35,243 nt of DNA from Gammaproteobacteria bacterium (GTDB taxonomy: Bacteria; Pseudomonadota; Gammaproteobacteria; Pseudomonadales; Litorivicinaceae): the NCBI GenBank assembly GCA_024640985.1, contig JAHEDY010000010.1, positions 6,884 to 42,126 on the forward strand, written 5' to 3'. The notes beneath the pieces are model-generated. The model had not been told where the DNA came from and made no database searches. It saw only the letters and a list, made by a program, of their open reading frames with translations. Every line of letters begins with the position of its first letter. The first letter of the stretch is position 1. The translations under genes were made by a program, and so were the position numbers. Positions 12,044-31,862 of the stretch are shown here, in pieces.

Positions 12044-12088
12044 GAATTTCTACCTTATGCAAATCCGTTATTTGCTAGGTAGAAATTC
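12044..12088. repeat. Long two-stem hairpin downstream of rpoD
   Basis: The outer arms GAATTTCTACCT (12044-12055) and AGGTAGAAATTC (12077-12088) are a perfect 12-bp inverted repeat. Inside, GCAAAT (12059-12064) pairs with ATTTGC (12070-12075) around the loop CCGTT. It begins 17 nt after the rpoD stop. Neither strand has a T-run after it, so it is not a canonical intrinsic terminator. It may be an mRNA 3'-end stabiliser, a terminator of another kind, or a site controlling the next gene. Confidence 0.65.
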
Positions 12089-12155
12089 GAAGTTGAAAAC
12101 CAATTCGATTCGCCGTTCAATCAACTCTCAAATTCACAACAAGAGAGTTCAGGGC

Positions 12156-12596
12156 ATGACCAAATATCTCGTCGCAACCTTTGCGGCACTTTCCCTTCTG
12201 ATGACCGGAACGGTGTTCGGCAGCAGTTCGTATGACAAACAAAAAGTCGTTTACCACGTCAATTACAGTGACGGGAAACGAGCAATTGGAGCGATGCGGA
12301 ACGCACAGAACCATATCAACGCACTCGGCCAAGACAATTATGAAATTCAGTTTGTCTTGCACGGTAATGGCATTGAATTATTGCGTTCCGTCGCACAAAA
12401 CAATCAGGATGCCGCTGGGCGTATTGATTCATTACGAGGCCAGGGCGTTAACTTTAAAATCTGTGCAAACACACTGAAAGGTCGGAAAATTGCATTGGAC
12501 GATCTGTATTTTGCGGAAGAGTCAGACGTAGTTCCGTCGGGTGTCGCGGAGATCGGAAAACTCCAGCAACAAGGATTTGTCTACTTAAGACCCTAA
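12156..12596 (+). CDS. Exported DsrE-family protein
   Basis: The 146-residue protein begins with a signal peptide (MTKYLVATFAALSLLMTGTVFGSSS), so a periplasmic location is likely. The mature part fits the DsrE/DsrF-like family: KVVYHVNYSD near the start, QFVLHGNGIELL in the middle, and a C-terminal GVNFKICANTLKGRKI...DDLYF...VVPSGVAEIGKLQQQGF. The single cysteine in ICANTL is typical of this subgroup. Family members are often linked to sulfur relay, but the function of these exported forms is not known. The frame runs further upstream; ATG 12156 is chosen because it gives a proper signal peptide. The stop codon lies in the A-run of the terminator of convergent matB. Confidence 0.88.
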   Translation: MTKYLVATFAALSLLMTGTVFGSSSYDKQKVVYHVNYSDGKRAIGAMRNAQNHINALGQDNYEIQFVLHGNGIELLRSVAQNNQDAAGRIDSLRGQGVNFKICANTLKGRKIALDDLYFAEESDVVPSGVAEIGKLQQQGFVYLRP

Positions 12597-12628: not shown

Positions 12629-14143
12629 TTATGAAAAACTGTTTGCGTAATCGTCTCGCAGGAGATTCTTCTGAACCTTGCCCATCGTATTTCTTGGCAA
12701 CGCCTGCAACTGCACCCATCGACGTGGGACCTTGAATCCAGCGAGCTTTTCTCGACAAGCCGATTCGAGAGCAGCCATATCCAATTCCTGTTCACCAACC
12801 AAGACAGCGACGATACCCTCCCCGAAATCTGGATGAGGAACACCAACAACTGCGCTTTCGACGACGCCGCCTTGATCGTTTAAGACATCTTCGATTTCCT
12901 TGGGATAGATATTCAAGCCACCTGAGATAATCAGATCTTTATCTCGGCCGACAATGGAAACGTAACCGTCCTCAGAGAGAGTGGCCATGTCACCGGTAAT
13001 AAACCAGTCACCTTTGAATTCAGACGCTGTTTTTTCCGGAAGTTTCCAATAGCCCTTAAAGACATGCTCGCCTTTGACTTCCAGGGCCCCGATTTCGCCT
13101 CGCGGTAATTCATCACCATCCTCGCCTATGATACGAACATCAACACCGGGCAGCGGTGGGCCCACGGATCCTGCACGACGGTCGCCATGGAGCGGATTAG
13201 AACAACTCATTCCTGTTTCGGTCATGCCATAACGTTCGAGAATTCGCTGCCCTGTCCGGTCAAAAAAATCATCGGATGTTTCAACAAGTAATGGCGCAGA
13301 CCCAGAGATAAACAGACGCATGTGACCACTAGATTGCCGGTCGAACCTTGAATCAGCCAACAATCGAGTATAGAAGGTCGGGACTCCCATCATGACGGTC
13401 GCTGAAGGCATCACCGAAAGCACCAGATCGGGGTCAAATTTGGGTAGCATGATCATCGGGCCACCGTTCATTAGAGCCAAATTCAGTGCCACAAACAAAC
13501 CATGGACGTGGAATAGCGGTAGCGCGTGCAACAGCACGTCGTCTGAGCTATAGGCCCAAGCCTCGGTCAGCATATTCGCATTCGCTGCCAGGTTACTGTG
13601 GGTAATCATGGCACCTTTCGGCTTACCGGTTGTTCCTGAGGTGTAGATGATTGACGCAAGATCGTGGGCGGCACGGGAGACGACCTCATCCGACATATGG
13701 CCAGACGTTTTTGCCGCATCAAAAAGATCGATCAACGTCCCGCTCTCATCATCCAGGGTGAGAACCTGTAATTCTGGGATTTGTGATCGTAGGGACTCCA
13801 CGTGCTCGGCACGATCCGAACTACAAATATGCAGTTTGGATTCTGCATCCGTCACAAAGTATTCGATTTCACTATTGGTATAGGCGGAATTCAACGGCAA
13901 ATAGACGGCTCCAGACCGTAAAACCGCTAAATAGAGCACAACGTTCATCCAGCCTTTTTCGATCTGAGCTGAGACTCGATCGCCGGCCTCAAGGCCGAGT
14001 TCCATGAGTGCACCCGCTAAAATTGCAGATTCACGATCAAGATCTGATCCTGTGAGTTGTCGTCCATTCGGAATGGTCAACAAAGTGCGTTCGGCGTGGT
14101 GCTTCAGATTCGTCTGAATAGCCGCAAAAACATTATGCGTCAT
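12629..14143 (-). CDS. matB: Malonyl-CoA synthetase (MatB-like acyl-CoA ligase)
   Basis: This ANL-superfamily ligase (504 aa) should activate malonate to malonyl-CoA with ATP and CoA. The P-loop YTSGTTGKPKG is at 167-177. RYGMTETGMS (304-313) is the A5 motif as found in MatB enzymes. GDWFITGD, the hinge GRDKDLIISGGLNIYPKEIE and the C-terminal catalytic-lysine region NTMGKVQKN follow. The 504-aa length is typical of MatB. The gene overlaps the upstream malonyl-CoA decarboxylase by 11 nt, a pairing that strongly supports malonate as substrate; methylmalonate would be an alternative. A Rho-independent terminator follows, so this is the last gene of a minus-strand operon that starts at dctP. Confidence 0.92.
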   Translation of the reverse strand: MTHNVFAAIQTNLKHHAERTLLTIPNGRQLTGSDLDRESAILAGALMELGLEAGDRVSAQIEKGWMNVVLYLAVLRSGAVYLPLNSAYTNSEIEYFVTDAESKLHICSSDRAEHVESLRSQIPELQVLTLDDESGTLIDLFDAAKTSGHMSDEVVSRAAHDLASIIYTSGTTGKPKGAMITHSNLAANANMLTEAWAYSSDDVLLHALPLFHVHGLFVALNLALMNGGPMIMLPKFDPDLVLSVMPSATVMMGVPTFYTRLLADSRFDRQSSGHMRLFISGSAPLLVETSDDFFDRTGQRILERYGMTETGMSCSNPLHGDRRAGSVGPPLPGVDVRIIGEDGDELPRGEIGALEVKGEHVFKGYWKLPEKTASEFKGDWFITGDMATLSEDGYVSIVGRDKDLIISGGLNIYPKEIEDVLNDQGGVVESAVVGVPHPDFGEGIVAVLVGEQELDMAALESACREKLAGFKVPRRWVQLQALPRNTMGKVQKNLLRDDYANSFS

Positions 14144-15413
14144 GGGACAATTCCTTCAATTGATGTTTTCTCGTTTTTTTTAATAATTGCTGTACGTCTT
14201 TCGACGTCGCTATTTGACCGGACTCCATCAGCTGTTCATGGTTTCGGACGATGTCATCGAGCTCGTACAAATAGTTCACCATGAATCCAAAACTTTGTTG
14301 TTGACCTCGACTACTTAAGTCCGCGTTTGCATTGATTCGCTCCAGTGTTGCCCCGTTACCTAGGTGAAATCGTGCGACTGGATCCTTCAGTTTGGCCCCA
14401 TTCCCTGATGTCAAATACTGAGCAACGATCGATTTTAGAACCGTCTCATCGTCCGATGATTCAAATCGGTGTAAAAACTCACGGCCTTCGGTCTCAAGCC
14501 AGAGACGTAACCCAGGAATGGGAGAAAGCGTGACAAAACGCTTCAATCTTGGATGCTCCGCCTGAAGGACGGAAACCACTTGTTTGATCAGCAAATTACC
14601 GAAACTGACCCCGGCAAGGCCCGGCTGGCAATTATTAATCGAATAAAACACCGCGGTATCAGCAGCAATCGGTGGCGCAGGCGGCGAATCTAACAGTGGC
14701 GCAATCGCATCCGACATGCCCTGCACCAAAGCAACTTCGACAAAAATTAGCGGCTCATCCGGGATGACAGGGTGAAAATAGGCAAAGCACAACCGATCTT
14801 CGGCGAGGCGCCGACGCAAGTCATCCCATCCCTGGATCTCATGCACCGACTCATACTGGATCAGCTTCTCTAAAACCGCTGCCGGTGTTTGCCAGTCAAT
14901 CCGTTCAAGCCTCAAGAATCCTTTATTGAACCAAGAGGTAAACAAATGCACCAGATCCTGATCGATCGGTTTCAATTCAGGATGTTCACGCAATAATCGA
15001 CGCAACGCCTCTCGCATCAGGATGAGTGTTTGCAGGCCGTTTGGCGCTGCATTGATTCGCCGAAACAGTTCTTGACGCTTGGCCTCAGCGGCCTGATGCA
15101 ATCGCATCACATTCACATCGTCAACATTCTTTTGATAGTCAGCAATCGCTTGCTGCAGCCGTTCTTGATCGGGGCCAAACTCTGCAATCAGGGCCTGAAA
15201 GAACGACAGATGCTGATTGGATTCAAGCGCCTGCCAGGAGGCCACCACAGAGCCGGCCAAAGCAAGTCCGGTGGCTTCTCCACGACGGGACAAGACCGCA
15301 TGACACTGTGAGATCAGATCATCAAGAGGGATGCCCTCAGATTTCAGATCCAAGATCTCAAGCGCTCGATCGGTTACTTGCTGAATCCACTGCTTGATTC
15401 CAATCGCCATCAT
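14133..15413 (-). CDS. matA: Malonyl-CoA decarboxylase
   Basis: The enzyme converts malonyl-CoA to acetyl-CoA and CO2. The 426-residue protein has an N-terminal helical domain and a C-terminal GNAT-like catalytic domain. Family landmarks are FYSINNCQPGLAGVSFGN, ITLSPIPG-like FVTLSPIPGLRLWL, and PVARFHLGNGATLERINANADLS, which holds the conserved catalytic His; the Ser is in the SINNC segment or near it. The frame is open from a TTG at 15440 that would overlap the upstream gene. I prefer ATG 15413, 7 nt after that gene's stop. It overlaps matB by 11 nt. Together with MatB it forms the classic matA-matB malonate degradation pair. Confidence 0.9.
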   Translation of the reverse strand: MMAIGIKQWIQQVTDRALEILDLKSEGIPLDDLISQCHAVLSRRGEATGLALAGSVVASWQALESNQHLSFFQALIAEFGPDQERLQQAIADYQKNVDDVNVMRLHQAAEAKRQELFRRINAAPNGLQTLILMREALRRLLREHPELKPIDQDLVHLFTSWFNKGFLRLERIDWQTPAAVLEKLIQYESVHEIQGWDDLRRRLAEDRLCFAYFHPVIPDEPLIFVEVALVQGMSDAIAPLLDSPPAPPIAADTAVFYSINNCQPGLAGVSFGNLLIKQVVSVLQAEHPRLKRFVTLSPIPGLRLWLETEGREFLHRFESSDDETVLKSIVAQYLTSGNGAKLKDPVARFHLGNGATLERINANADLSSRGQQQSFGFMVNYLYELDDIVRNHEQLMESGQIATSKDVQQLLKKTRKHQLKELSHDA

Positions 15414-15420
15414 GATCTGC

Positions 15421-16164
15421 TCACTCAAATAACGCACCAAAACCAGGTATTTGCGTATCCAACTGAAGCTCGCGCATCATTCGATAGCTTGTCGCCACCG
15501 AGGCAGATAATGTGGGAACGCCCGTTTTCGCTTGCAGGTGCGCTACTGCCGGAAGCGAGGGCATCTGCACGCAGGCTGAGGCCACTAAGGTGTCTACATT
15601 CGAGAGATTGAGACGATCAACAAGTTCAACTGGCGCCATTGGGTCCTGGCGCGCAACTTCGAGGTTATCCGGAATCTCAAGACTGATCGCATCTAAGACT
15701 TCAAACCCTTCCGATTCCAAATACTGACAGACTAAATCGGTCAACGGTTTCCGGTAAGGAGTGATTAATGCGATGCGTTGAGCTCCTAATGCAGAAAGGC
15801 CCTCAACTAAGGCTCCTGCAGAGCTAACCACGGGGCACGGCTGACCGTTTTCAACCGTCACCTGATGCAGTCGCGCTTGACTCTCACGGTGATACCCAAG
15901 TCCCATCGCCATAATTGCAACCAGACACGCATAACCCATGACATCCACCGAGGCATCCGATAACTCCAATGCACAACGATCACTATCACCATCCATCGCA
16001 GCCAGCTCTTCTTTGGTGACCTGTTTCATGCGCATCCGGCTAGAATGGAAGGTGAAACGTTCATCGCAAATTAACTCACGAGCACGGAATAGTGCTGGAA
16101 TCTCGGTTTCCATCGTGACGTTAGAACTAGGAACAATTTGACCAATTCGATAGTGCTTTCTCAT
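15421..16164 (-). CDS. maiA: Maleate cis-trans isomerase-like protein (Asp/Glu racemase superfamily)
   Basis: The closest recognisable family is maleate isomerase, which turns maleate into fumarate by a two-cysteine mechanism. The start YRIGQIVPSSNVTMETEIPAL is the family signature. FTFHSSRMRMKQVTKEEL follows, then the first catalytic Cys80 in GYACLVAIM and the second Cys198 in ASACVQMPSL, where both cysteines of the mechanism are expected. The 247-residue length matches. Its ATG overlaps the dctM stop by 4 nt, so it is coupled to the transporter and precedes the malonate genes. Related arylmalonate decarboxylase-type members of the superfamily use only one of the two cysteines, so two cysteines favour an isomerase. 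Confidence 0.85.
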   Translation of the reverse strand: MRKHYRIGQIVPSSNVTMETEIPALFRARELICDERFTFHSSRMRMKQVTKEELAAMDGDSDRCALELSDASVDVMGYACLVAIMAMGLGYHRESQARLHQVTVENGQPCPVVSSAGALVEGLSALGAQRIALITPYRKPLTDLVCQYLESEGFEVLDAISLEIPDNLEVARQDPMAPVELVDRLNLSNVDTLVASACVQMPSLPAVAHLQAKTGVPTLSASVATSYRMMRELQLDTQIPGFGALFE

Positions 16165-17480
16165 GAGACTGCAGTTCCCATCAGTACATCAGGCAGCCAA
16201 GTGGCAATCCCTGGGAACAAGCACAAAATCAGAATCGCGACCACCATACAGGCGACATAAGGAAGCGATCCTTTCAGAATCGTCTTTAGCGGGATTTCAG
16301 GCGCAATCCCATTGATCACATAGAGATTGAGTCCAACAGGTGGGGAAATTAAACCGATCTCCATGTTGATCGTGAGAACGACAGCAAACCAATAAGGGTC
16401 AAAGCCTGCACCCAAAATAATTGGCATCAAAATCGGTGCTGCCATCAGGATCACGGCGACCGGAGGTAAGAAGAACCCAGCCACTAACAAAAACACATTG
16501 ACGTACAACATCAATACCCAACGGTTCACATCCAGTGTACCGATCCACTCAGCGATCGCTTGGGTGATAAACAGACTCGATAACATGTATGAGAAGACAC
16601 CGGCCGCTCCAATGATGAACAGAATCATCACTGACTCTTTGGTTGCGTCGCGCAGCATCACCCAGACCAAAGACAGATCTGTCATCCTGTAAATAATGAT
16701 GGCGAGCCCTAAGCACAAAAGCGCACCGACAGCTGCCGTCTCCGAAGGCGTCGCAACACCGCCATACAATGCATAAAGAACGCCGAGGATCACCAACAAA
16801 AACGGGATCACGCGCGGAAGGACTTCAAACTTTTCTTTCCAAGTAAAGGTCCGGCCAGCCAAGGCATCGATACCACCTTCGCGCCAAGTCGCATAGATGG
16901 ACCAAGCCATGAAAAGGCCAACCAGCATCAGTCCAGGTAAGACACCGGCCAAGAACAGTCGACCAATGGATGTCTCGGTGGCGATCCCATATACAATCAT
17001 CGTGATCGATGGAGGGATGAGAATCCCGAGGGTTCCACCTGCTGCGATCGAACCGGCTGCGACGCCATCTGGGAAGTTACGCTTGCGCATTTCGGGGATA
17101 CCCATTTTCCCGATTGCTGCACAAGTCGCAGGCGATGAGCCAGACATCGCTGCAAAAAGCGCACATGCCCCAAGATTTGAAACAACCAACCCACCGGGAA
17201 TGCGGGTCAGCCAACGGTCCAATGCTTCGTAGAGATCAGCACCAGCCCTGGTCGACGCAATCGCAGCACCCATCAAAATAAACATTGGAATAGATAACAA
17301 CGCAAAATTATCGAGCTTACCGAACAGGACTTCCGGGATTAATTCCAGTGAACCGAATCCATCAAAGATCATTAGGAAAAGTGCAGAGACAACCAATAAC
17401 CCATTGGCGACTGAAATCCCTGAAAACAAAATAAAAATTGTAATAGCCGCGACAATCGCACCTAACAACAATGGATCCAT
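16161..17480 (-). CDS. dctM: TRAP transporter large permease subunit (DctM type)
   Basis: DctM is the channel-forming subunit of a sodium-driven TRAP transporter that takes up a carboxylate delivered by the periplasmic binding protein. The 439-residue protein has about 12 hydrophobic segments. It shows the DctM landmarks: LLSIPMFILMGAA near residue 60, GGLVVSNLGACALFAAMSGSSPATCAAIG (about 95-123), IAAGGTLGILIPPSI (about 144-158), and GLISPPVGLNLYV near the C-terminus. Its ATG shares one base with the dctQ stop (TAATG), and its stop overlaps maiA by 4 nt. The order P-Q-M is the standard one. The substrate is inferred from its operon partners as malonate, maleate or a related dicarboxylate. Confidence 0.94.
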   Translation of the reverse strand: MDPLLLGAIVAAITIFILFSGISVANGLLVVSALFLMIFDGFGSLELIPEVLFGKLDNFALLSIPMFILMGAAIASTRAGADLYEALDRWLTRIPGGLVVSNLGACALFAAMSGSSPATCAAIGKMGIPEMRKRNFPDGVAAGSIAAGGTLGILIPPSITMIVYGIATETSIGRLFLAGVLPGLMLVGLFMAWSIYATWREGGIDALAGRTFTWKEKFEVLPRVIPFLLVILGVLYALYGGVATPSETAAVGALLCLGLAIIIYRMTDLSLVWVMLRDATKESVMILFIIGAAGVFSYMLSSLFITQAIAEWIGTLDVNRWVLMLYVNVFLLVAGFFLPPVAVILMAAPILMPIILGAGFDPYWFAVVLTINMEIGLISPPVGLNLYVINGIAPEIPLKTILKGSLPYVACMVVAILILCLFPGIATWLPDVLMGTAVS

Positions 17481-18001
17481 TAGTGGCCGCTCCCTTCGAT
17501 AACGATGTCTTCCGCTGGGGTCTGCAACGTCTCAAAAAGATCCGCCAGCAACTGTAGTGCAAAAAGGCCAAAGCCAAGTGGCATCGCAAGGTATGGAATC
17601 CAAAGTGGAGGGCCCCAGACTGTTTCGGACACCCATCCGCGGACGAACGAAATGTGAACTAATTCCCATCCGTGGTAAGTCATGACGGCAAGGATCGCGA
17701 CAGCTGCCAAATAGCTCGCAATCATCAGTGCCTTCCGTGCCACAGGCGGTAAAAGCATCGGCACCAAATCGACATTGACGTGGCCTTTTAACTTTTGCAC
17801 GTAAGGCAATCCAAGCAATGTCGCACCAACCATGAGGTAGATGACGGCTTCGGTTTGCCAGATCGTTGAACCGTTTAAGAAGTAGCGGATGAAGATCATT
17901 TGGCAAGTGATCGCCACTGCAATCACGATCATACTAGCCGCAATCACCCCTACCGTTTGTGAAACCAAATTCACTGTACGGATATATGCCTGCATGTTCA
18001 T
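17480..18001 (-). CDS. dctQ: TRAP transporter small permease subunit (DctQ type)
   Basis: The 173-residue protein has four predicted membrane helices (about 15-40, 50-70, 90-110 and 130-155), as expected of DctQ. It carries the family-like segments VAITCQMIFIRYFLNGS and WIPYLAMPLGFGLFALQLLADL. It associates with DctM and helps membrane integration and substrate-binding-protein docking. The gene begins 42 nt after the dctP stop. The gap contains a strong hairpin (18014-18033) and an AGGA ribosome binding site close to the ATG. Confidence 0.93.
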   Translation of the reverse strand: MNMQAYIRTVNLVSQTVGVIAASMIVIAVAITCQMIFIRYFLNGSTIWQTEAVIYLMVGATLLGLPYVQKLKGHVNVDLVPMLLPPVARKALMIASYLAAVAILAVMTYHGWELVHISFVRGWVSETVWGPPLWIPYLAMPLGFGLFALQLLADLFETLQTPAEDIVIEGSGH

Positions 18002-18013
18002 TGTCCTGGAAAT

Positions 18014-18033
18014 GCCCGGTCTTGCGACCGGGC
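18014..18033. promoter_or_regulatory. Intercistronic hairpin between dctP and dctQ
   Basis: GCCCGGTC (18014-18021), loop TTGC and GACCGGGC (18026-18033) form a perfect 8-bp GC-rich stem. It lies 10 nt after the dctP stop on the minus strand, with no T-tract downstream. Such hairpins after binding-protein genes commonly protect the upstream mRNA or partly terminate, so that the binding protein is made in excess over the membrane subunits. Confidence 0.7.
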
Positions 18034-18043
18034 GATACGTGAA

Positions 18044-19027
18044 TTACTCGACCGCGAGTGCTAGATCGAGGAAGCGTTGTCCTTCTGGATAACCGGCAAC
18101 GAATTCTTTATAAGCGGTTTGCTTTGCAAGATCTTGCCACGCTTGGAACTCATCTTTGGTCATTTCTTTGATTTGAACGCCAGCTTCTTTGAATACGCGA
18201 ACAGACTCTGCGTCTTCTTTCTTCGCTTCAGCGAGATAAAAATCTTCCGCTTTTTTCGCACCTTCACGCAACGCTTTCTTTTGCGCTTCGTTCAGGCCGT
18301 CAAAGGTTGATTTATTCATCAACAGCGGCTGATACATAAACCACAACGCCTGCTCAGCTGCTGGCGTGTAGCATTTCACCTGTTCGTAAATGCGGTATGA
18401 AACAAAGGATGAGGATGACGTATTGGCCCCATCAAGAACGCCTGTTTGCATAGCGTTATAGATTTCAGACGATGCCATGGAAGCAATTGAAGCCCCGGCA
18501 CCCGCTAACAGCTGATTAAATGATTTACCAGCAGCACGCATCTGAATACCTTTCACATCGGATGGGTTCGAGAGGCATTTGTCCTTGCCAGCAAACCCAC
18601 CGGCTAGATACCCGTGCACAAGAACCATGACATCGTCTTCAGCCATTTTTTCTTGCACCGCGTCCATAAAAGGTGAGTAGTTCAGGCGCGCTGCATGATC
18701 GTGGTTTTTCACCAGGCCAGGCATCAGAGTCAGGTTATAAGAGGGTTGCTGACCACCGGCATAGGATAATGGAAGAACTGTCATATCCAGTTGTCCGCGA
18801 GATAATGGCTTGTATTGCTCACGAGGCTTAAACAGTGATTTTGATGGGAAGATCTTAATTTCCAAATCAACGTTGGCATCTTTGACATGGTTCGCAACGA
18901 TCTCAGCCACTTTGTGACGAACATCTTTGGTTGACCATTGATGGGAGAGACGTAGCTCTGCCGCACTTGCGACTGAACTGATCAATGCTGCACCAATCGC
19001 AGCGGTTACAAGGGCTTTTACTTTCAT
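18044..19027 (-). CDS. dctP: TRAP transporter solute-binding protein (DctP type)
   Basis: This is the periplasmic binding protein of the TRAP system, 327 residues with an obvious signal peptide (MKVKALVTAAIGAALISSVASA, then AELRLSHQWS). The conserved DctP core is present: VKGIQMRAAGKSFNQLLAGAGA, holding the arginine that usually pairs with a substrate carboxylate, followed by SEIYNAMQTGVLDGANTS. The open frame extends further upstream, but ATG 19027 has AGGAG seven bases ahead and starts exactly at the signal peptide. It is the first gene of the operon dctP-dctQ-dctM-maiA-matA-matB and is divergent from the GntR gene at 19131. The ligand is probably malonate, maleate or another short dicarboxylate. 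Confidence 0.93.
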   Translation of the reverse strand: MKVKALVTAAIGAALISSVASAAELRLSHQWSTKDVRHKVAEIVANHVKDANVDLEIKIFPSKSLFKPREQYKPLSRGQLDMTVLPLSYAGGQQPSYNLTLMPGLVKNHDHAARLNYSPFMDAVQEKMAEDDVMVLVHGYLAGGFAGKDKCLSNPSDVKGIQMRAAGKSFNQLLAGAGASIASMASSEIYNAMQTGVLDGANTSSSSFVSYRIYEQVKCYTPAAEQALWFMYQPLLMNKSTFDGLNEAQKKALREGAKKAEDFYLAEAKKEDAESVRVFKEAGVQIKEMTKDEFQAWQDLAKQTAYKEFVAGYPEGQRFLDLALAVE

Positions 19028-19064
19028 ATCAGGCTCCTGCCGATTGTTATGAGTTATTACGGCT

Positions 19065-19104
19065 TGCATATTTATGTATGCTGTGTAGAAATTATCGTAT
19101 ACAA
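19065..19104. promoter_or_regulatory. Candidate operator region between dctP and the GntR gene
   Basis: The 103-bp divergent gap holds TCGTATACAA (19095-19104), one base away from the TTGTNNACAA palindrome seen in other promoters of this region. It also holds the inverted repeat GCATA...TATGC (19066-19070 and 19077-19081). FCD-type GntR proteins usually bind short palindromes of this form in their own divergent promoter. A TTGCAT element on the minus strand upstream could be the -35 of dctP. Confidence 0.45.
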
Positions 19105-19130
19105 AAATAAGATGCAACGAGTTTCACATT

Positions 19131-19784
19131 ATGAGTAGTCGAGCCGCCACCCGAGTCTTTCAAGGGGTCGAAGAACAAATCGCAACCGGTCAGCTGAAAG
19201 ATGGGGCCAAGCTCGACGAGGCTTCACTGGCTGAACGATTTGAAGTGTCCCGCACACCGGTACGCGAAGCGCTACTACAATTAGTGGGCTCAGGGCTCGC
19301 CACACAGATTCCAAAGCGAGGGTGTTTCGTCAAAGCACCGTCCCTTCGTGACATGGTCGAAATGTTCGAGGTGATGAGTGAGCTCGAGGGTATGTGCGCA
19401 CGACTGGCTGCACGAAGGATCAGCGATCAACAGCTCGCCGAACTCAAGGCCGCAAACGCGGGCTGCGAAGACGCCATCAAAGCCAATGACAGCGATTTGT
19501 ACTACCACAAAAACGTCGACTTTCATGAGTGTATCTACATCGCATGTGGGAATAGCTTTCTTGCCAATGAAACACGCTCGTTACGACGACGATTGCAGTC
19601 ATTTCGACGACTGCAACTTCGTGTTCGCGGCCGAATGCCTCAGTCACTGGGCGAGCATTTCGAGATCGTCAACGCGATCGAATCTGGCGATGCCGACCAG
19701 GCAGACAGAATTTCCAGACAACACGTGATGATTCAAGGCGAGCGCTTTCATGATCTATTGGTGCATATGGAGCAAGGCGTGTGA
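19131..19784 (+). CDS. GntR-family transcriptional regulator (FCD subfamily)
   Basis: The 217-residue regulator has an N-terminal winged helix-turn-helix (about residues 10-70) with the GntR signature LAERFEVSRTPVREALLQLVGSGL. A C-terminal FCD ligand domain follows with the expected metal-binding histidines in DFHECIYIACGN, GEHFEIVNAI and RQHVMIQGE. FCD regulators normally sense carboxylic acids and act as repressors that are released by ligand. It is divergent from the TRAP/malonate operon (gap 103 bp), so it most likely controls dctPQM-maiA-matAB, in the same relation as MatR to the rhizobial mat genes. The start lacks a strong ribosome binding site. The 3' end overlaps the next gene by 4 nt (GTGA), so both are cotranscribed. 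Confidence 0.92.
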   Translation: MSSRAATRVFQGVEEQIATGQLKDGAKLDEASLAERFEVSRTPVREALLQLVGSGLATQIPKRGCFVKAPSLRDMVEMFEVMSELEGMCARLAARRISDQQLAELKAANAGCEDAIKANDSDLYYHKNVDFHECIYIACGNSFLANETRSLRRRLQSFRRLQLRVRGRMPQSLGEHFEIVNAIESGDADQADRISRQHVMIQGERFHDLLVHMEQGV

Positions 19785-20488
19785 CACCAAAAGCGCTGTT
19801 ATTTGACGTGTTTGGCACAGTCGTGGACTGGCGATCCGGCATTACTCGAGATCTAGCGATCCATTTTCAAACCCATCCCAGCAATACAGATCCAGAATCG
19901 GTCGCCGATGCTTGGCGTGCAGAGTATCAACCGTCCATGGAACCGGTGCGATCTGGTCGTCGCGGTTACGTCGACCTAGACACCTTACATGCTGAAAACC
20001 TTGTCAAACTGTCCAAGGAATACGAATTCGACCTTGGCGATGAGAACAAAACCGTTTGGCTGACCAAAGCCTGGCATCGACTCCCCTGTTGGCCCGATAG
20101 TGTCGCTGGTATAGAACGACTGAAAAGGCAGTTCATTTGCGCTTCTCAGTCTAACGGTCATATTGCGCTGGCCGTGAACCTCGCTAAATACAATAATTAC
20201 TCTTGGGACGTGATCTTGGGGGCCGAGGTCGTGAGAACTTACAAGCCAGATCCCGATGCCTATAAGCGCGCTGCCGCGTGTCTCGGGCTAGAACCCTCTT
20301 CATGTATGATGGTCGCCGCCCATAACTATGACCTGAAAGCGGCCCAAGATGTCGGTTTCAAGACTGCCTTTGTCAGGAGACCTTCCGAGCATGGGCCGAA
20401 TCAGGCGATTGATCTTGAGGCGACTGGTGACTGGGATGTATGCGTCGAGTCTCTGACAGACCTTGCTACTAAGCTTTCCTGTCGCTAG
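19781..20488 (+). CDS. HAD-superfamily hydrolase, haloacid dehalogenase type II-like
   Basis: The 235-residue protein has the HAD motifs in order: motif I LFDVFGTVVDWR with nucleophile Asp9 and Thr13, motif II in ICASQSNGH (Ser124/Asn125), motif III Lys155 in TYKPDPDAYKRA, and motif IV VAAHNYDLKAAQ with Asp184. These match L-2-haloacid dehalogenases, but where the characterised enzymes have VSSN the sequence has VAAHN. The Ser of the halide/active-site pocket is therefore absent, and the real substrate may be a phosphoester or another acid. The GTG start overlaps the GntR stop by 4 nt, so it is coupled to the regulator. The stop overlaps that of the convergent tarD-like gene by 3 nt. Confidence 0.85.
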   Translation: MTPKALLFDVFGTVVDWRSGITRDLAIHFQTHPSNTDPESVADAWRAEYQPSMEPVRSGRRGYVDLDTLHAENLVKLSKEYEFDLGDENKTVWLTKAWHRLPCWPDSVAGIERLKRQFICASQSNGHIALAVNLAKYNNYSWDVILGAEVVRTYKPDPDAYKRAAACLGLEPSSCMMVAAHNYDLKAAQDVGFKTAFVRRPSEHGPNQAIDLEATGDWDVCVESLTDLATKLSCR

Positions 20489-21657
20489 ATCGCAATCTGG
20501 TTCCCAAACGCTTTCATTAGCATCGCCCGGAAGTTTGCCTTGTTCTCTAGCCCGAGCCCAGGCGCGCTCGGCAGATTCACAAAGCTCTGCTCGACTTCTA
20601 ATTCATCTGAGAATCCCCCGAACGGCTGGAAGACACCGGGATATGACTCATTTCCACCCAGTCCTAACCCGGCCGCGATATGCAGAGACATTTGATGGCC
20701 TCCGTGTGGCACAACACGTCTCGGGGACCAACCATATTCGCGGAGCACGTCTAGGGTTCTGTAATACTCGACCAGCCCATAGGAGAGTGCGCAGTCAAAC
20801 TGAAGGTAGTCCAAATCTGAACGCATGCCGCCATAGCGGAGCAAGTTACGGGCGTCCTGATGCGAAAATAAATTTTCGCCCGTCGCAGTCGGCAAGTCAT
20901 AGGCCTCACTGAGTGCTGCCTGGATCTCAAAATCCAACGGATCGCCCGCCTCCTCGTACCAGAACAATCGGTATTGCTTGAGGGCCGCTGCGTAGGAAAG
21001 CGTAGTTTCGAGGTCAAATCGGCCGTTCGCATCAACACAGAGATTCCCTTCTCCAACAATCTTCAACGCCGCCTCGATCCGATCACAATCATGGGAAAGG
21101 TCAGCCGCTCCGATTTTCATTTTGCAAACCGTGTAGCCTAGATCAAGATACTGACGGAACTCATCTTGCAGGCCAGAAATATCTTTACCGGGGTAGTAAT
21201 AGCCACCTGCTGCATAAACCCAGACTTTTGAATCAGGTTTTCTACCCTCACGGTCAGCGAGTAATTGATATAGCGGTACACCCTGCATCTTGGCGCGCGC
21301 ATCCCAAAGTGCCATATCGAGAACACCAACGGCCACTGACCGCTCACCATGTCCACCGGGCTTTTCATTTGTCATCATGACATCCCAGGCTCTATGAGGA
21401 TCCAGATACCCGTCTTCACCAACTAAGTGATCTGGGTCAGCCTCAAGCAGGCGAGGGATCAAGCGGTCTTTCAAAATCCCAGAGGCGTTATATCTTCCGT
21501 TTGAGTTAAACCCATATCCAACAATAGGTTTACCATCAATTACTTGATCAGTGACGACCGCGACAACCGAGCATGTCATCTTCGAAAAATTGATATAGGC
21601 GTTCTGGATATCTGAAGCGATTGATTCAACAGAATCATAGATTGCTGTTATGCGCAT
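20485..21657 (-). CDS. tarD: D(-)-tartrate dehydratase-like enolase-superfamily enzyme
   Basis: The protein (390 aa) resembles D-tartrate dehydratase, which removes water from D-tartrate to give oxaloacetate. The N-terminal cap holds NAYINFSKMT and GFNSNGRY. The barrel holds MMTNEKPGGHGERSVAVG, YAAGGYYYPGK, the KxK motif Lys179/Lys181 (VCKMKIG), metal ligands Asp209 (VDANGRF), Glu235 (FWYEE) and Glu261 (ATGENLFSHQDARNLLRYGG), and the base His318 in PHGGHQMSLHIAAGLGLGGNESYPG. This pattern of KxK plus His is that of TarD. The length matches the ~389 aa TarD. The start ATG 21657 is preceded by GGTGG. It stands alone on the minus strand, convergent with the HAD gene, and upstream lie a 30-bp palindrome and the small ORF at 21779. 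Confidence 0.9.
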   Translation of the reverse strand: MRITAIYDSVESIASDIQNAYINFSKMTCSVVAVVTDQVIDGKPIVGYGFNSNGRYNASGILKDRLIPRLLEADPDHLVGEDGYLDPHRAWDVMMTNEKPGGHGERSVAVGVLDMALWDARAKMQGVPLYQLLADREGRKPDSKVWVYAAGGYYYPGKDISGLQDEFRQYLDLGYTVCKMKIGAADLSHDCDRIEAALKIVGEGNLCVDANGRFDLETTLSYAAALKQYRLFWYEEAGDPLDFEIQAALSEAYDLPTATGENLFSHQDARNLLRYGGMRSDLDYLQFDCALSYGLVEYYRTLDVLREYGWSPRRVVPHGGHQMSLHIAAGLGLGGNESYPGVFQPFGGFSDELEVEQSFVNLPSAPGLGLENKANFRAMLMKAFGNQIAI

Positions 21658-21716
21658 TTGACCACCGTGTTCGGAAAGTAGGCCGTGCCTACCTTAAAAA
21701 AATCTGAAGGATCGGA

Positions 21717-21746
21717 AGATGACAGATTGTTAACAATCTGTCATCT
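21717..21746. promoter_or_regulatory. 30-bp perfect palindrome upstream of tarD
   Basis: The half-site AGATGACAGATTGTT is followed directly by its exact reverse complement. The centre is TTGTTAACAA (21727-21736), which fits the TTGTNNACAA motif seen at other promoters of the region. It lies 60 nt upstream of the tarD ATG and 33 nt downstream of the stop of the minus-strand small ORF. It could be an operator for tarD, or a terminator-like hairpin for the small ORF; no T-run follows directly on either strand. Confidence 0.7.
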
Positions 21747-21778
21747 GAGAAAGAGTAATGGACGGTGGGTTTTCTAAA

Positions 21779-21973
21779 TTAAGATTCTTTGATGCCAAGG
21801 AGTGCGTAACCACGGCCGGTCAGACGGTTAGCGTGATCGATCTCGCTAGAAACCTCGATTGCGAGGCGCAAGGAATTACAAAACCCTTGCACAAAGCCGA
21901 AAGCTGGTTCGATGATAGTTGCGAAAGGGTTTACCGAGGTTAAGCTTGTGCGAACCGCAGACAATGTTGACAT
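21779..21973 (-). CDS. Small protein of unknown function (64 aa)
   Basis: I do not recognise this protein. The reason to call it is the quality of its signals. The ATG at 21973 has GGAGA about 8 bases upstream (plus-strand TCTCC at 21981-21985). The codons are those of strongly expressed genes, such as CGT CTG ACC GGC CGT GGT TAC GCA near the end. The protein starts MSTLSAVRTSLTSVNPFATI and ends TGRGYALLGIKES; it is helix-forming, without an evident signal peptide or transmembrane segment. It is divergent from the rhodanese gene (41-bp gap) and upstream of tarD. The overlapping plus-strand ORF (21758-21943) has no comparable signals. Confidence 0.55.
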   Translation of the reverse strand: MSTLSAVRTSLTSVNPFATIIEPAFGFVQGFCNSLRLAIEVSSEIDHANRLTGRGYALLGIKES

Positions 21974-21996
21974 TGAATAGTCTCCAACAAAATACT
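21967..21996 (+). promoter_or_regulatory. Candidate promoter of the rhodanese gene
   Basis: A perfect -35 TTGACA (21967-21972) is followed, after 18 nt, by AATACT (4 of 6 matches to TATAAT, 21991-21996). Transcription would start near 22003, about a dozen bases before ATG 22015, which supports that start. The -35 overlaps the start of the minus-strand small gene. Confidence 0.4.
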
Positions 21997-22014
21997 GATA
22001 ATAAATTGGGTATT

Positions 22015-23559
22015 ATGGTAATAATAAATACTGCATCGCACAATAAGATTGGACTCGTCCGAATTGATGAAGCCTTAAAACTCCTGCAAACGAAGCAACG
22101 CATCGCATTTATTGACGTCCGCGATCGCAAATCCTATGTGAACGAACACCCGATATTCGCAGTCAACGCGCCAATTGACTCAATAGAATTGCAAATCAAG
22201 CAGCTCTTCAGTGATGAGCTTGGAATTGCCTTAATTATCGGGGACAACCCAACCATGACAGATTGGGCCGCCGCGGTCATCGCTGACTCTACCCGTTTGA
22301 CGCCTCAAATCATCGACGGAGGATTCGGTGCATGGAAAAACCATCGCCTCCCGGTCTGGGGTGGGGAATATACGCCATCAAAAGCATTCGGTGAGTGGAT
22401 AGAAACGACCGGCAACATCCAAAATATCAAGCCTGAAGATGCGATGAATTCCCCACCCCATTATCAATTCGATGTCAGACCTTTTACAGAATTCCAGAGA
22501 TTCAGCTTACCAAGCTCAATCCACTGCCCGACTGGCCGGCTTGGAGCTCTCACAATTTTCCACAGCTCAATTTACCTCCATTGCGCAGGCCGGACGCGAG
22601 GAATCATCGCGGCACAAACCCTAGCCGACCAAGATTTTGACGCATCGATCTACTGCATTACCGGTGGCACTCAGGGTTGGGAGCTCGCTGGAGGCTCCCG
22701 CTCATTCAACAATCATCGATCGGCAGAAGAGTTCTTCTCCGAAGAAACGATGAAGCAGCACGCCAATCACCTCATCAACAAATTTAATTTGCCAATCGCA
22801 ACGAAAGATTGCGAGAGCAACTGGTCACGTTCAGAGACCCAATTCCGCATCATCACTGTCAGCGAAGACCAAACGACCGATCAAGCGATCTCTCCAACAA
22901 CTCTCATCCAAAGCACAGATCAGTATTTGGGTACGCACAACATGCCCCTCATCGTGCAAGGGCCCAATCAACTGGATTGCGCTGTATCCGCATTGTGGCT
23001 CCGACGCCTAGGCTGGAATGCGTGGTTGTGCGAAGAGTTTGTGCCAGAATCAGGCGCGCCCAACTACAAAAGGATCAATCCCCTTGAATGGAACGATGAG
23101 TGGCTGCTTGCTGATCGTATTATCGACATCCGTTCAAGCAAAGCATTCAAAGCCAGCCGGCTTAGGGGTTCGAAGTGGATACCAAGATCACAATTCAACA
23201 CATTACGCACATCGGATCGGCATCTGATTGTCTGCGATCAATCTCAAATTACCCACACACAGAAACTCGTCAACGAACTCAATCTATCGGAGCCAAATTG
23301 CATCACCTGGGATGTGATTCCCAAAGAATATATCGACTCAAGCGAAATTCGCTTCGAATCTCACCCTATCGACCAAGCGTTATTTTTCCCAGACAGACAT
23401 CAGGGGAACCTTGAACACGCACAAGGATACCTCGACTGGGAACATAGTCTTCTTCCGACGCTGAAAGATTATGGGGATATTCCTTGGAAACCGATCAATG
23501 ACTCACTTGATCAGCCAATATCTCATCTCACCGCCTTCTACCGAAAGGTTCACTCATGA
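22015..23559 (+). CDS. Multi-domain rhodanese-like protein (sulfurtransferase family)
   Basis: With the start at ATG 22015 the protein has 514 residues and appears to hold four rhodanese-type modules. Module 1 reads IAFIDVRDRKSY and ends DGGFGAWKNHRLPVWGG. Module 2 starts near YQFDVRPFTEF and holds the active-site loop LHCAGRTRGII with Cys190, ending GGTQGWELAGG. Module 3 contains VQGPNQLDCAVSALWLRRLGW. Module 4 reads ADRIIDIRSSKAF and LIVCDQSQ. Only module 2 has a full CxGRTR loop, so it is the probable catalytic site. Similar four-module proteins exist but I know of no defined function. It is coupled to the next gene by ATGA overlap (23556-23559). An upstream frame extends to 21919 but lacks a good start. 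Confidence 0.8.
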   Translation: MVIINTASHNKIGLVRIDEALKLLQTKQRIAFIDVRDRKSYVNEHPIFAVNAPIDSIELQIKQLFSDELGIALIIGDNPTMTDWAAAVIADSTRLTPQIIDGGFGAWKNHRLPVWGGEYTPSKAFGEWIETTGNIQNIKPEDAMNSPPHYQFDVRPFTEFQRFSLPSSIHCPTGRLGALTIFHSSIYLHCAGRTRGIIAAQTLADQDFDASIYCITGGTQGWELAGGSRSFNNHRSAEEFFSEETMKQHANHLINKFNLPIATKDCESNWSRSETQFRIITVSEDQTTDQAISPTTLIQSTDQYLGTHNMPLIVQGPNQLDCAVSALWLRRLGWNAWLCEEFVPESGAPNYKRINPLEWNDEWLLADRIIDIRSSKAFKASRLRGSKWIPRSQFNTLRTSDRHLIVCDQSQITHTQKLVNELNLSEPNCITWDVIPKEYIDSSEIRFESHPIDQALFFPDRHQGNLEHAQGYLDWEHSLLPTLKDYGDIPWKPINDSLDQPISHLTAFYRKVHS

Positions 23560-25962: not shown

Positions 25963-25974
25963 ATTGTCTACAAT
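25963..25974. promoter_or_regulatory. Operator-like palindrome ATTGTCTACAAT
   Basis: The 12-mer has perfect 5-bp arms around CT and contains TTGTCTACAA (25964-25973). It sits just upstream of the TauE/SafE start, where binding would block transcription. It shares its form with sites near tarD, the PEPM-family gene and dctP. Confidence 0.6.
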
Positions 25975-31015: not shown

Positions 31016-31837
31016 TCAAGACTCTCCCAACCATCGGTCCTGATCGACGAAACGATCACGGTCCCCCAGAGGGCTTAACAAGTCGCACACAGACTCTGAA
31101 TTACCATTCTCGACGATTGACCTAAGAACAGACTCAGTCGCCTGAATGCAGGCCCGCTGAACATCAGACGGTACTATCATGTACCGGTACCCGAACTTCT
31201 TTAACAAGTCTGGGCTGGCGTAGGGTGTCTTCCCGCCCGGGAACATGTTGATCAAGACAGGCACCTCGAACAAACTGGGTATCAACTCAACCTGTTCAAC
31301 TGTTTCTGGGGCCTCAATAAAAACAACATCTGCGCCCGACTCGACCATTGATTGTCCACGCGAAATTGCCATTTCGAACCCTTCGATCGCGATCGCATCA
31401 GTTCTCCCGATGATCAAAAAATCATCGGCTCGCCGAGCTTTGACCGCCGACTCGATTTTACGGCACATCGAATCTTTTGAGATAAGTGACTTACCCTCAA
31501 GGTGGCCGCAGCGTTTTGGGAAGCTCTGGTCTTCAATATGCACCCCCTTTATCCCGGAGGCCTCAAACATTTGGACCATACGGCGAACGTGCTGAGTATC
31601 ACCGTACCCTGTGTCACCGTCAGCAAAGACCATACCCTCGAATGCTCGCACGATCGACTCTAGTCTCGCCGCCATTTCAGTCATAGAAACCAACCCAAGG
31701 TCTGGCAATCCAAAACTGCGCGCGATCGCACCCCCGCTGGCATAGACTGCTTTTGCCCCCAAATGCCGCGCAATTGAGGCGCCCAATCCGTCATAGACAC
31801 CGGGAAGGATCATAAGTTTATGTTCGTCACGCATCAT
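31016..31837 (-). CDS. Isocitrate lyase/PEP mutase family protein (candidate lyase)
   Basis: The 273-residue TIM-barrel protein has DGDTGYGD (73-80) for metal binding, and HIEDQSFPKRCGHLEGK (100-116) whose KRCGH catalytic-loop motif is typical of C-C lyases such as methylisocitrate lyase and 2,3-dimethylmalate lyase. GRTDA (144-148) and FIEAPE (173-178) complete the active site. PEP mutases lack the CGH cysteine loop, so a lyase acting on a substituted malate is likely. Together with the LeuCD-like hydratase this resembles the last steps of nicotinate fermentation (dimethylmaleate hydratase and dimethylmalate lyase), but the exact substrate is not known. It starts with ATG ATG (31837 or 31834), and is divergent from tctC across 179 bp. 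Confidence 0.85.
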   Translation of the reverse strand: MMRDEHKLMILPGVYDGLGASIARHLGAKAVYASGGAIARSFGLPDLGLVSMTEMAARLESIVRAFEGMVFADGDTGYGDTQHVRRMVQMFEASGIKGVHIEDQSFPKRCGHLEGKSLISKDSMCRKIESAVKARRADDFLIIGRTDAIAIEGFEMAISRGQSMVESGADVVFIEAPETVEQVELIPSLFEVPVLINMFPGGKTPYASPDLLKKFGYRYMIVPSDVQRACIQATESVLRSIVENGNSESVCDLLSPLGDRDRFVDQDRWLGES

Positions 31838-31852
31838 TATAGAGCACCTGCA

Positions 31853-31862
31853 TTGTCGACAA
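31853..31862. promoter_or_regulatory. Operator-like palindrome TTGTCGACAA
   Basis: The perfect 10-bp palindrome TTGTCGACAA is 16 nt upstream of the PEPM-family ATG. It is an exact match to the TTGTNNACAA form seen upstream of TauE/SafE and tarD. Binding here would overlap the 5' end of the minus-strand transcript. Confidence 0.6.

Follow-up and report, generated by a model that had tools for sequence, protein, structure and literature searches.

Proteins of the DUF1127/YjiS type are small and helical. The 64-amino-acid protein described here belongs to a like size class and is helical by prediction, and its C-terminal end bears a loose likeness to theirs, by eye only. DUF1127 (YjiS-like) was absent from the Pfam matches at E up to 1 of this protein and three of its orthologs, and on present evidence from such matches it appears not to be a DUF1127 member. 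A second kind consists of the orphan, lineage-restricted small proteins that comparative genomics brings to light in bacteria, of the type collected in catalogs such as GMSC (PMC11364881) and sORFdb (PMC11796252). With that kind the present gene shares a length below 100 aa, a ribosome-binding site of its own, purifying selection, a narrow range, and a position outside the family libraries searched, and no difference in kind is apparent. Among the papers listed in literature searches, none on this gene was seen; the gene is ordinary, small, and lineage-specific, and its pattern of loss is instructive. What it contributes is a well-supported small gene, of no known family, from a little-studied clade of marine bacteria with small genomes, and the general picture is unchanged; seen being lost in several sister species, it offers a case for when a lineage-specific small protein is worth keeping.

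Reading Frame, Start Signals, and Codon Use

The window, by which we mean the whole stretch of 35,243 nucleotides analyzed and in whose numbering all positions are given, belongs to a 1.63-Mb genome (G000; other G numbers denote the relatives compared) that is 98.85% complete and in which the small gene is single-copy. Its features are collected in Table 1, and the translation of the small gene is MSTLSAVRTSLTSVNPFATIIEPAFGFVQGFCNSLRLAIEVSSEIDHANRLTGRGYALLGIKES. An earlier reading of the sequence alone (the sequence-only reading) had picked out a 64-codon minus-strand ORF with a GGAG ribosome-binding site; coordinates, strand, length, ATG, TAA, and GGAG are all present.

Table 1. Features of the small-gene locus and its surroundings in the window
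Feature	Position	Strand	Remarks
64-aa small protein gene	21779-21973	minus	ATG start, TAA stop; lineage-restricted, helical by prediction; basis: syntenic homologs, purifying selection, models
GGAG ribosome-binding site	21982-21985	minus	8 bases 5′ of the small-gene ATG
Divergent gap, 44 bases	21974-22017		Separates the small-gene start codon from that of the rhodanese gene
Sigma-70-like TTGACA-18-AATACT	21967-21996	plus	Consensus match; promoter-like for the rhodanese gene
Multi-rhodanese-domain protein, 513 aa	22018-23559	plus	Divergent neighbor
Perfect 30-base palindrome AGATGACAGATTGTTAACAATCTGTCATCT, core TTGT-NN-ACAA	21717-21746		Between the small-gene stop and the dehydratase start
MR/enolase-superfamily dehydratase	20485-21657	minus	Downstream neighbor, same strand as the small gene
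Type II haloacid dehalogenase-like HAD gene	19781-20488	plus	Broken or not found in 4 of 5 genomes without intact small gene
GntR/FCD-type regulator	19131-19784	plus	Candidate owner of the palindrome
TTGTNNACAA site	21727-21736		Before the dehydratase gene
TTGTNNACAA site	25964-25973		Next to the start of a TauE-like gene
TTGTNNACAA site	31853-31862		15 bases before minus-strand ORF 31016-31837

Length alone is no evidence of coding: outside its gene list, the window has 149 ORFs of 50 aa or more, and 87 of these reach 64 codons or more. An ORF arising by chance and yielding no product would fit the frequency of such lengths in the window, as it would the breakage of the frame in four of 10 syntenic copies. 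Taken alone, the GGAG site is modest evidence for a gene: a GGAG, GAGG, or AGGA four-mer stands ahead of 4 of 29 window genes and of 4 of 62 ATG-started non-gene ORFs. Among the relatives, GGAG is found in G010, G014, G015, G016, and G017 and GAGG in G002 and G008, and G012 has GGA only.

Codon use was scored against 28 ORFs, named by eye, from the ribosomal-protein region of the same genome (ribosomal proteins, elongation factors, and RNA polymerase alpha). The small gene scores 0.695, compared with means of 0.744 for the ribosomal set, 0.611 for the 29 window genes, and 0.556 for the 149 non-gene ORFs; scores at least as high occur in 10.4% of 278 chunks of 64 codons cut from window genes and in 2.7% of the non-gene ORFs. 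The codons had been called typical of highly expressed genes, a description that is fair, the score being good and not extreme. A 61-aa plus-strand ORF (21758-21943) was rejected as the true gene: it carries an in-frame stop in G010, G016, G015, and G014, and the codon-position pattern fits the minus strand.

Homologs and Taxonomic Range

Homologs of the small gene lie between the same two neighbors, the dehydratase and the multi-rhodanese protein, in nine other genomes of the genus, five of which have an open frame. Of the 25 family genomes, the same 11 carry both neighbors. Ten of these have the two genes on either side of one intergenic region with the small gene or what is left of it; in G013, the two genes are ∼7 kb apart, the dehydratase gene has no copy before it, and the best profile match in the genome (E 0.19) is elsewhere. 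A single-sequence search of the 25 family genomes detected the small gene in nine, including G000, at E up to 0.01, and the search of the genus brought up the decayed G003 copy at no better than E 0.19. Among the matches listed, at least two loci come from named relatives, the gammaproteobacterial MAG WB7_3xA_021 and the uncultured Litoricola single cell AG-905-C17. Identity of the open copies to G000 is 92% (G010), 70% (G014), 64% (G002), 56% (G008), and 44% (G012, with a divergent N terminus), and 15 residues are invariant across the six open copies, 11 of them within residues 34–58.

Outside the genus, there is no credible relative of the small protein in the collections searched. A single-sequence search of 293 genomes of the order gave two matches, G266 (E 0.003) and G229 (E 0.006), which were rejected as they lack any window gene in their vicinity at E up to 1e-6 and, by eye, both overlie the same longer conserved frame. 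With a six-row profile, one match was found in 390 order genomes (G383, E 0.0019) and set aside as it covers 23 residues; in 369 class genomes, G000 alone was matched at E up to 0.001. Plasmid and phage searches gave no match at E up to 1, nor did a search of viral contigs give any.

Within the genus, profile matches at E 0.006–0.25 fall in 358-aa frames of six genomes. The three of the six that were read (loci L075, L077, and L070) lie in a RecF-like protein adjoining DnaN- and GyrB-like frames, all named by eye, and the matches were rejected as copies of the small gene. Six more loci, L067 (G001, E 0.004), L068, L071, L072, L073, and L076, cover 23–38 residues, most with a stop, and were rejected likewise. 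The other profile matches are G017:C32 (E 0.0016; profile positions 29–52, nearly as L067 and L076), L069 (E 0.068), and four without an assigned locus, outside the 358-aa frames, at E 0.3–0.7. In the collections searched, the small gene occurs in a single clade of genus rank among the marine Litoricolaceae (OM252/Litoricola type). The G+C content of the window is 50.5%, which falls within the range of 47–51% given for the OM252 clade, that for Litoricola being 58–60% (PMC8269220), and the organism therefore likely belongs to OM252.

Selection on the Reading Frame

Homologs with a bias of synonymous over nonsynonymous substitution, which the sequence-only reading had proposed to look for, do exist. 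By the Nei–Gojobori method, dN/dS is 0.11 for the nearest pair (G000–G010), 0.27 and 0.20 for G000 with the deep G002 and G008, and 0.35 for G002–G008; for each of the four pairs, none of 2,000 random simulations with equal numbers of changes had as few amino-acid changes. Second codon positions differ least and third positions most; between G000 and G008, for example, differences at positions 1, 2, and 3 number 23, 11, and 41. The G012 copy does not enter these figures, since its N terminus cannot be aligned without gaps. A chance ORF is refuted in practice by this substitution pattern, the purifying selection being strong both in the nearest pair and in the deep lineages. Moreover, five copies are open at the identical length of 64 codons, although in simulations at the observed numbers of changes, a stop was gained in 75% to 82% of cases for the seven pairs that include G002 or G008. 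On this pattern of substitution, the small gene is almost certainly coding, and an ORF of chance origin is scarcely tenable.

The G014 copy is open but evidently drifting, because G010–G014 has a dN/dS of 0.93 with 1,772 of 2,000 simulations as low, and G000–G014 has 0.38 with 254 of 2,000 as low. The frame is kept and dN/dS lies well below 1 across independent lineages, with the exceptions of the relaxed G014 and the four broken copies. Judged by the substitutions, constraint on the small gene holds in the window's lineage and the deep ones, and one subclade shows relaxation.

Repeated Loss

Disruption in close relatives, which the sequence-only reading had held to speak against a gene, occurs in four of the 10 syntenic copies (G015, G016, G017, and G003), and G013 has no copy; the frame is intact in six (G000, G010, G014, G002, G008, and G012), among them the nearest relative G010 and the three deep ones. 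The lesions consist of an altered start codon plus a stop in G015, one stop in G016, a stop plus a one-base deletion in G017, and heavy decay with no start in G003. That they differ among genomes points to separate losses and not to a frame that never coded. In a tree of three neighboring proteins, the open G014 and the broken G017 are sisters (support 100) and G015 branches next (70), with the placement of G016 and G008 weak (49 and 65); these positions, together with G016 and G003, indicate about four separate losses. Both flanking genes are open in the four genomes with a broken copy, so the small gene is not needed for the persistence of either.

Four broken copies with differing lesions, one genome without a copy, and the relaxed change in G014 would also suit a gene on its way out everywhere and functionless even in the window's organism. 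The low dN/dS of the G000–G010 pair, which no simulation matched, argues against this, as does the good codon adaptation, and we consider such general decay unlikely. The comparison of copies thus shows a gene under constraint in the window's lineage that can nonetheless be dispensed with and has been lost more than once.

Family Searches and Predicted Structure

The product had been said to match no family, and this holds in the libraries searched. In Pfam, NCBIfam, PHROGs, and PADLOC, no family came up for the window protein at E up to 1. Three orthologs gave a single subthreshold Pfam match (PF24409, E 0.16, one ortholog), five aligned ortholog rows gave one NCBIfam match at E 0.062 and none in PHROGs, and one ortholog searched in PADLOC had no match. 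A profile search of solved structures returned a sole match at E 0.36, and in the PDB, Foldseek detected no fold like that of the first of the two models described next.

Two AlphaFold runs led by different orthologs both predicted a helix at residues 3–14 followed by one at 16–59, with mean pLDDT of 76 and 75, best at residues 21–60, and pTM of only 0.39 and 0.37. From these models, the protein is probably helical, and such models would be compatible alike with the regulatory and the structural role that the sequence-only reading had suggested, an interpretation that is borne out in part, as to a real gene, the absence of a family match, and the substitution bias. The long helix is clearly amphipathic against shuffles in G000 (1.5%) and not in G002 (40%) or G008 (19%).

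A membrane-active peptide or toxin-like protein would be small and easily lost, as this one is, and the N-terminal half is moderately hydrophobic. A small membrane protein or type I toxin would contain a strongly hydrophobic membrane-spanning stretch, and none is found: the maximal 19-residue Kyte–Doolittle means of four orthologs are 1.05, 1.28, 1.55, and 1.34, too low for a clear transmembrane helix, and a transmembrane reading was rejected. The lack of any PADLOC, PHROGs, phage, or plasmid match, the metabolic flanking genes, and the single copy in the genome likewise count against a membrane or toxin role, which we judge quite unlikely.

Catabolic Neighborhood and Proposed Role

The sequence-only reading had placed the small gene between a rhodanese gene and tarD. 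The flanks are indeed a multi-rhodanese protein and a dehydratase, and the name tarD holds at the family level only, the dehydratase scoring 112.7 bits against the NCBIfam talarate/galactarate dehydratase model, whose cutoff is 500. For the rhodanese gene, the mechanical ORF list has a TTG start at 21919 (21919-23559, plus strand), and aligned relatives favor the ATG at 22018. The neighborhood holds a malonate-type set comprising a TRAP transporter, malonyl-CoA decarboxylase, an AMP-binding ligase, and an arylmalonate-decarboxylase-family protein, and in addition to the GntR/FCD regulator and the type II HAD dehalogenase-like enzyme, the region encodes two MR-superfamily enzymes, an aconitase-family protein, a nitroreductase, an alpha/beta hydrolase, and a TauE exporter. 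In the stretch 12629-19784, the TRAP transporter, malonyl-CoA decarboxylase, and AMP-binding ligase, taken with the GntR regulator, resemble a malonate-use operon.

The HAD gene is eroding, broken in G015, G016, and G017 and not found in G013, and its co-occurrence with the small gene agrees in 10 of 11 genomes. Both genes are present in G000, G010 (HAD from residue 129 only, at a contig end), G014, G008, G002, and G012, and both are broken or not found in G015 (HAD from residue 163 only), G016, G017, and G013; G003 disagrees. Gene 12057-12596 is eroding as well, being broken in G014, G016, and G017. Because the genomes are related and this other gene also decays, the co-loss is weak as a sign of a functional link.

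The best explanation overall, which we advance tentatively and with slightly less than even confidence, is a clade-restricted soluble helical small protein acting as a dispensable modulator in a catabolic cluster. The gene is genuine and would be well translated, its product a 64-aa soluble or peripheral protein predicted to fold as a short N-terminal helix followed by a single long helix. The conserved working part would be the C-terminal half of the long helix, S-L-R-L-A-I-E-V-S-x-E-I-D-x-A-N-R-L-T-x-R-G-x-x-L-L-G-I, and the helix would most likely bind a partner or itself. Such binding would most likely modulate an activity specified by genes of the catabolic cluster around it; that the protein modulates the local pathway is, as a separate claim, possible though doubtful. 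Its use would be conditional, so that several lineages have dropped it. Against this explanation stand the low pTM of both models, the lack of a PDB match for the first, an amphipathicity clear in G000 only of three orthologs, the breakage of the gene in four genomes where both neighbors stay open, and the unconstrained G014 when compared with G010. A narrower version, in which the protein would be a dedicated modulator of a local dicarboxylate-type catabolic enzyme, perhaps the HAD dehalogenase-like one, seems unlikely. Were it true, a small protein peculiar to this clade would be regulating metabolism in streamlined marine bacteria.

Candidate Operator and Flanking Signals

Of the 10 syntenic regions, eight keep the palindrome core TTGTTAACAA, as TTGTTAACAA or TTGTCGACAA, and two, those of G016 and G003, have it degraded; G013 has no such palindrome before the dehydratase gene. 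The TKGT/ACMA boxes of the FadR-subfamily consensus (PMC4494728) make the palindrome a plausible candidate operator of the GntR/FCD regulator. The window contains three copies of TTGTNNACAA, where 0.55 would be expected, and none of 100 shuffles reached three; a looser 14-base form with two mismatches was found four times against 2.1 expected and is not clearly enriched. The three sites make up a candidate regulon of the regulator at 19131. In G016, the GntR gene is frameshifted as well as the core degraded; the GntR gene is intact in G003, with its degraded core, and in G013, which argues against a simple link between palindrome and GntR. Since the palindrome follows the small gene and precedes the dehydratase gene, it is more likely to control the latter, of which it would probably be the operator.

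Control of the dehydratase gene by a leader, an upstream ORF, or a structured RNA would accord with the ORF's position on the same strand, 121 bases upstream, and with the conserved palindrome between, which on paper could form a hairpin. A leader peptide would have a sequence of little importance and a terminator or pause hairpin before the dehydratase gene; here, selection acts on the protein sequence, and no terminator-like site was found in 21600-22200. In Rfam, no family was found; the only match, to a snoRNA family, scored 15.7 bits where the cutoff is 50. Furthermore, the dehydratase gene is intact where the ORF is broken, as is the palindrome in G015 and G017, and control of this kind is very unlikely.

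In the divergent gap, a scan for sigma-70-like sites passed none on the minus strand. Such sites are consensus matches only, with two found against 1.5 expected. The first hexamer of the promoter-like site on the plus strand lies in the first codons of the small gene (ATGTCAACA), so part of the conservation there could serve the rhodanese promoter.
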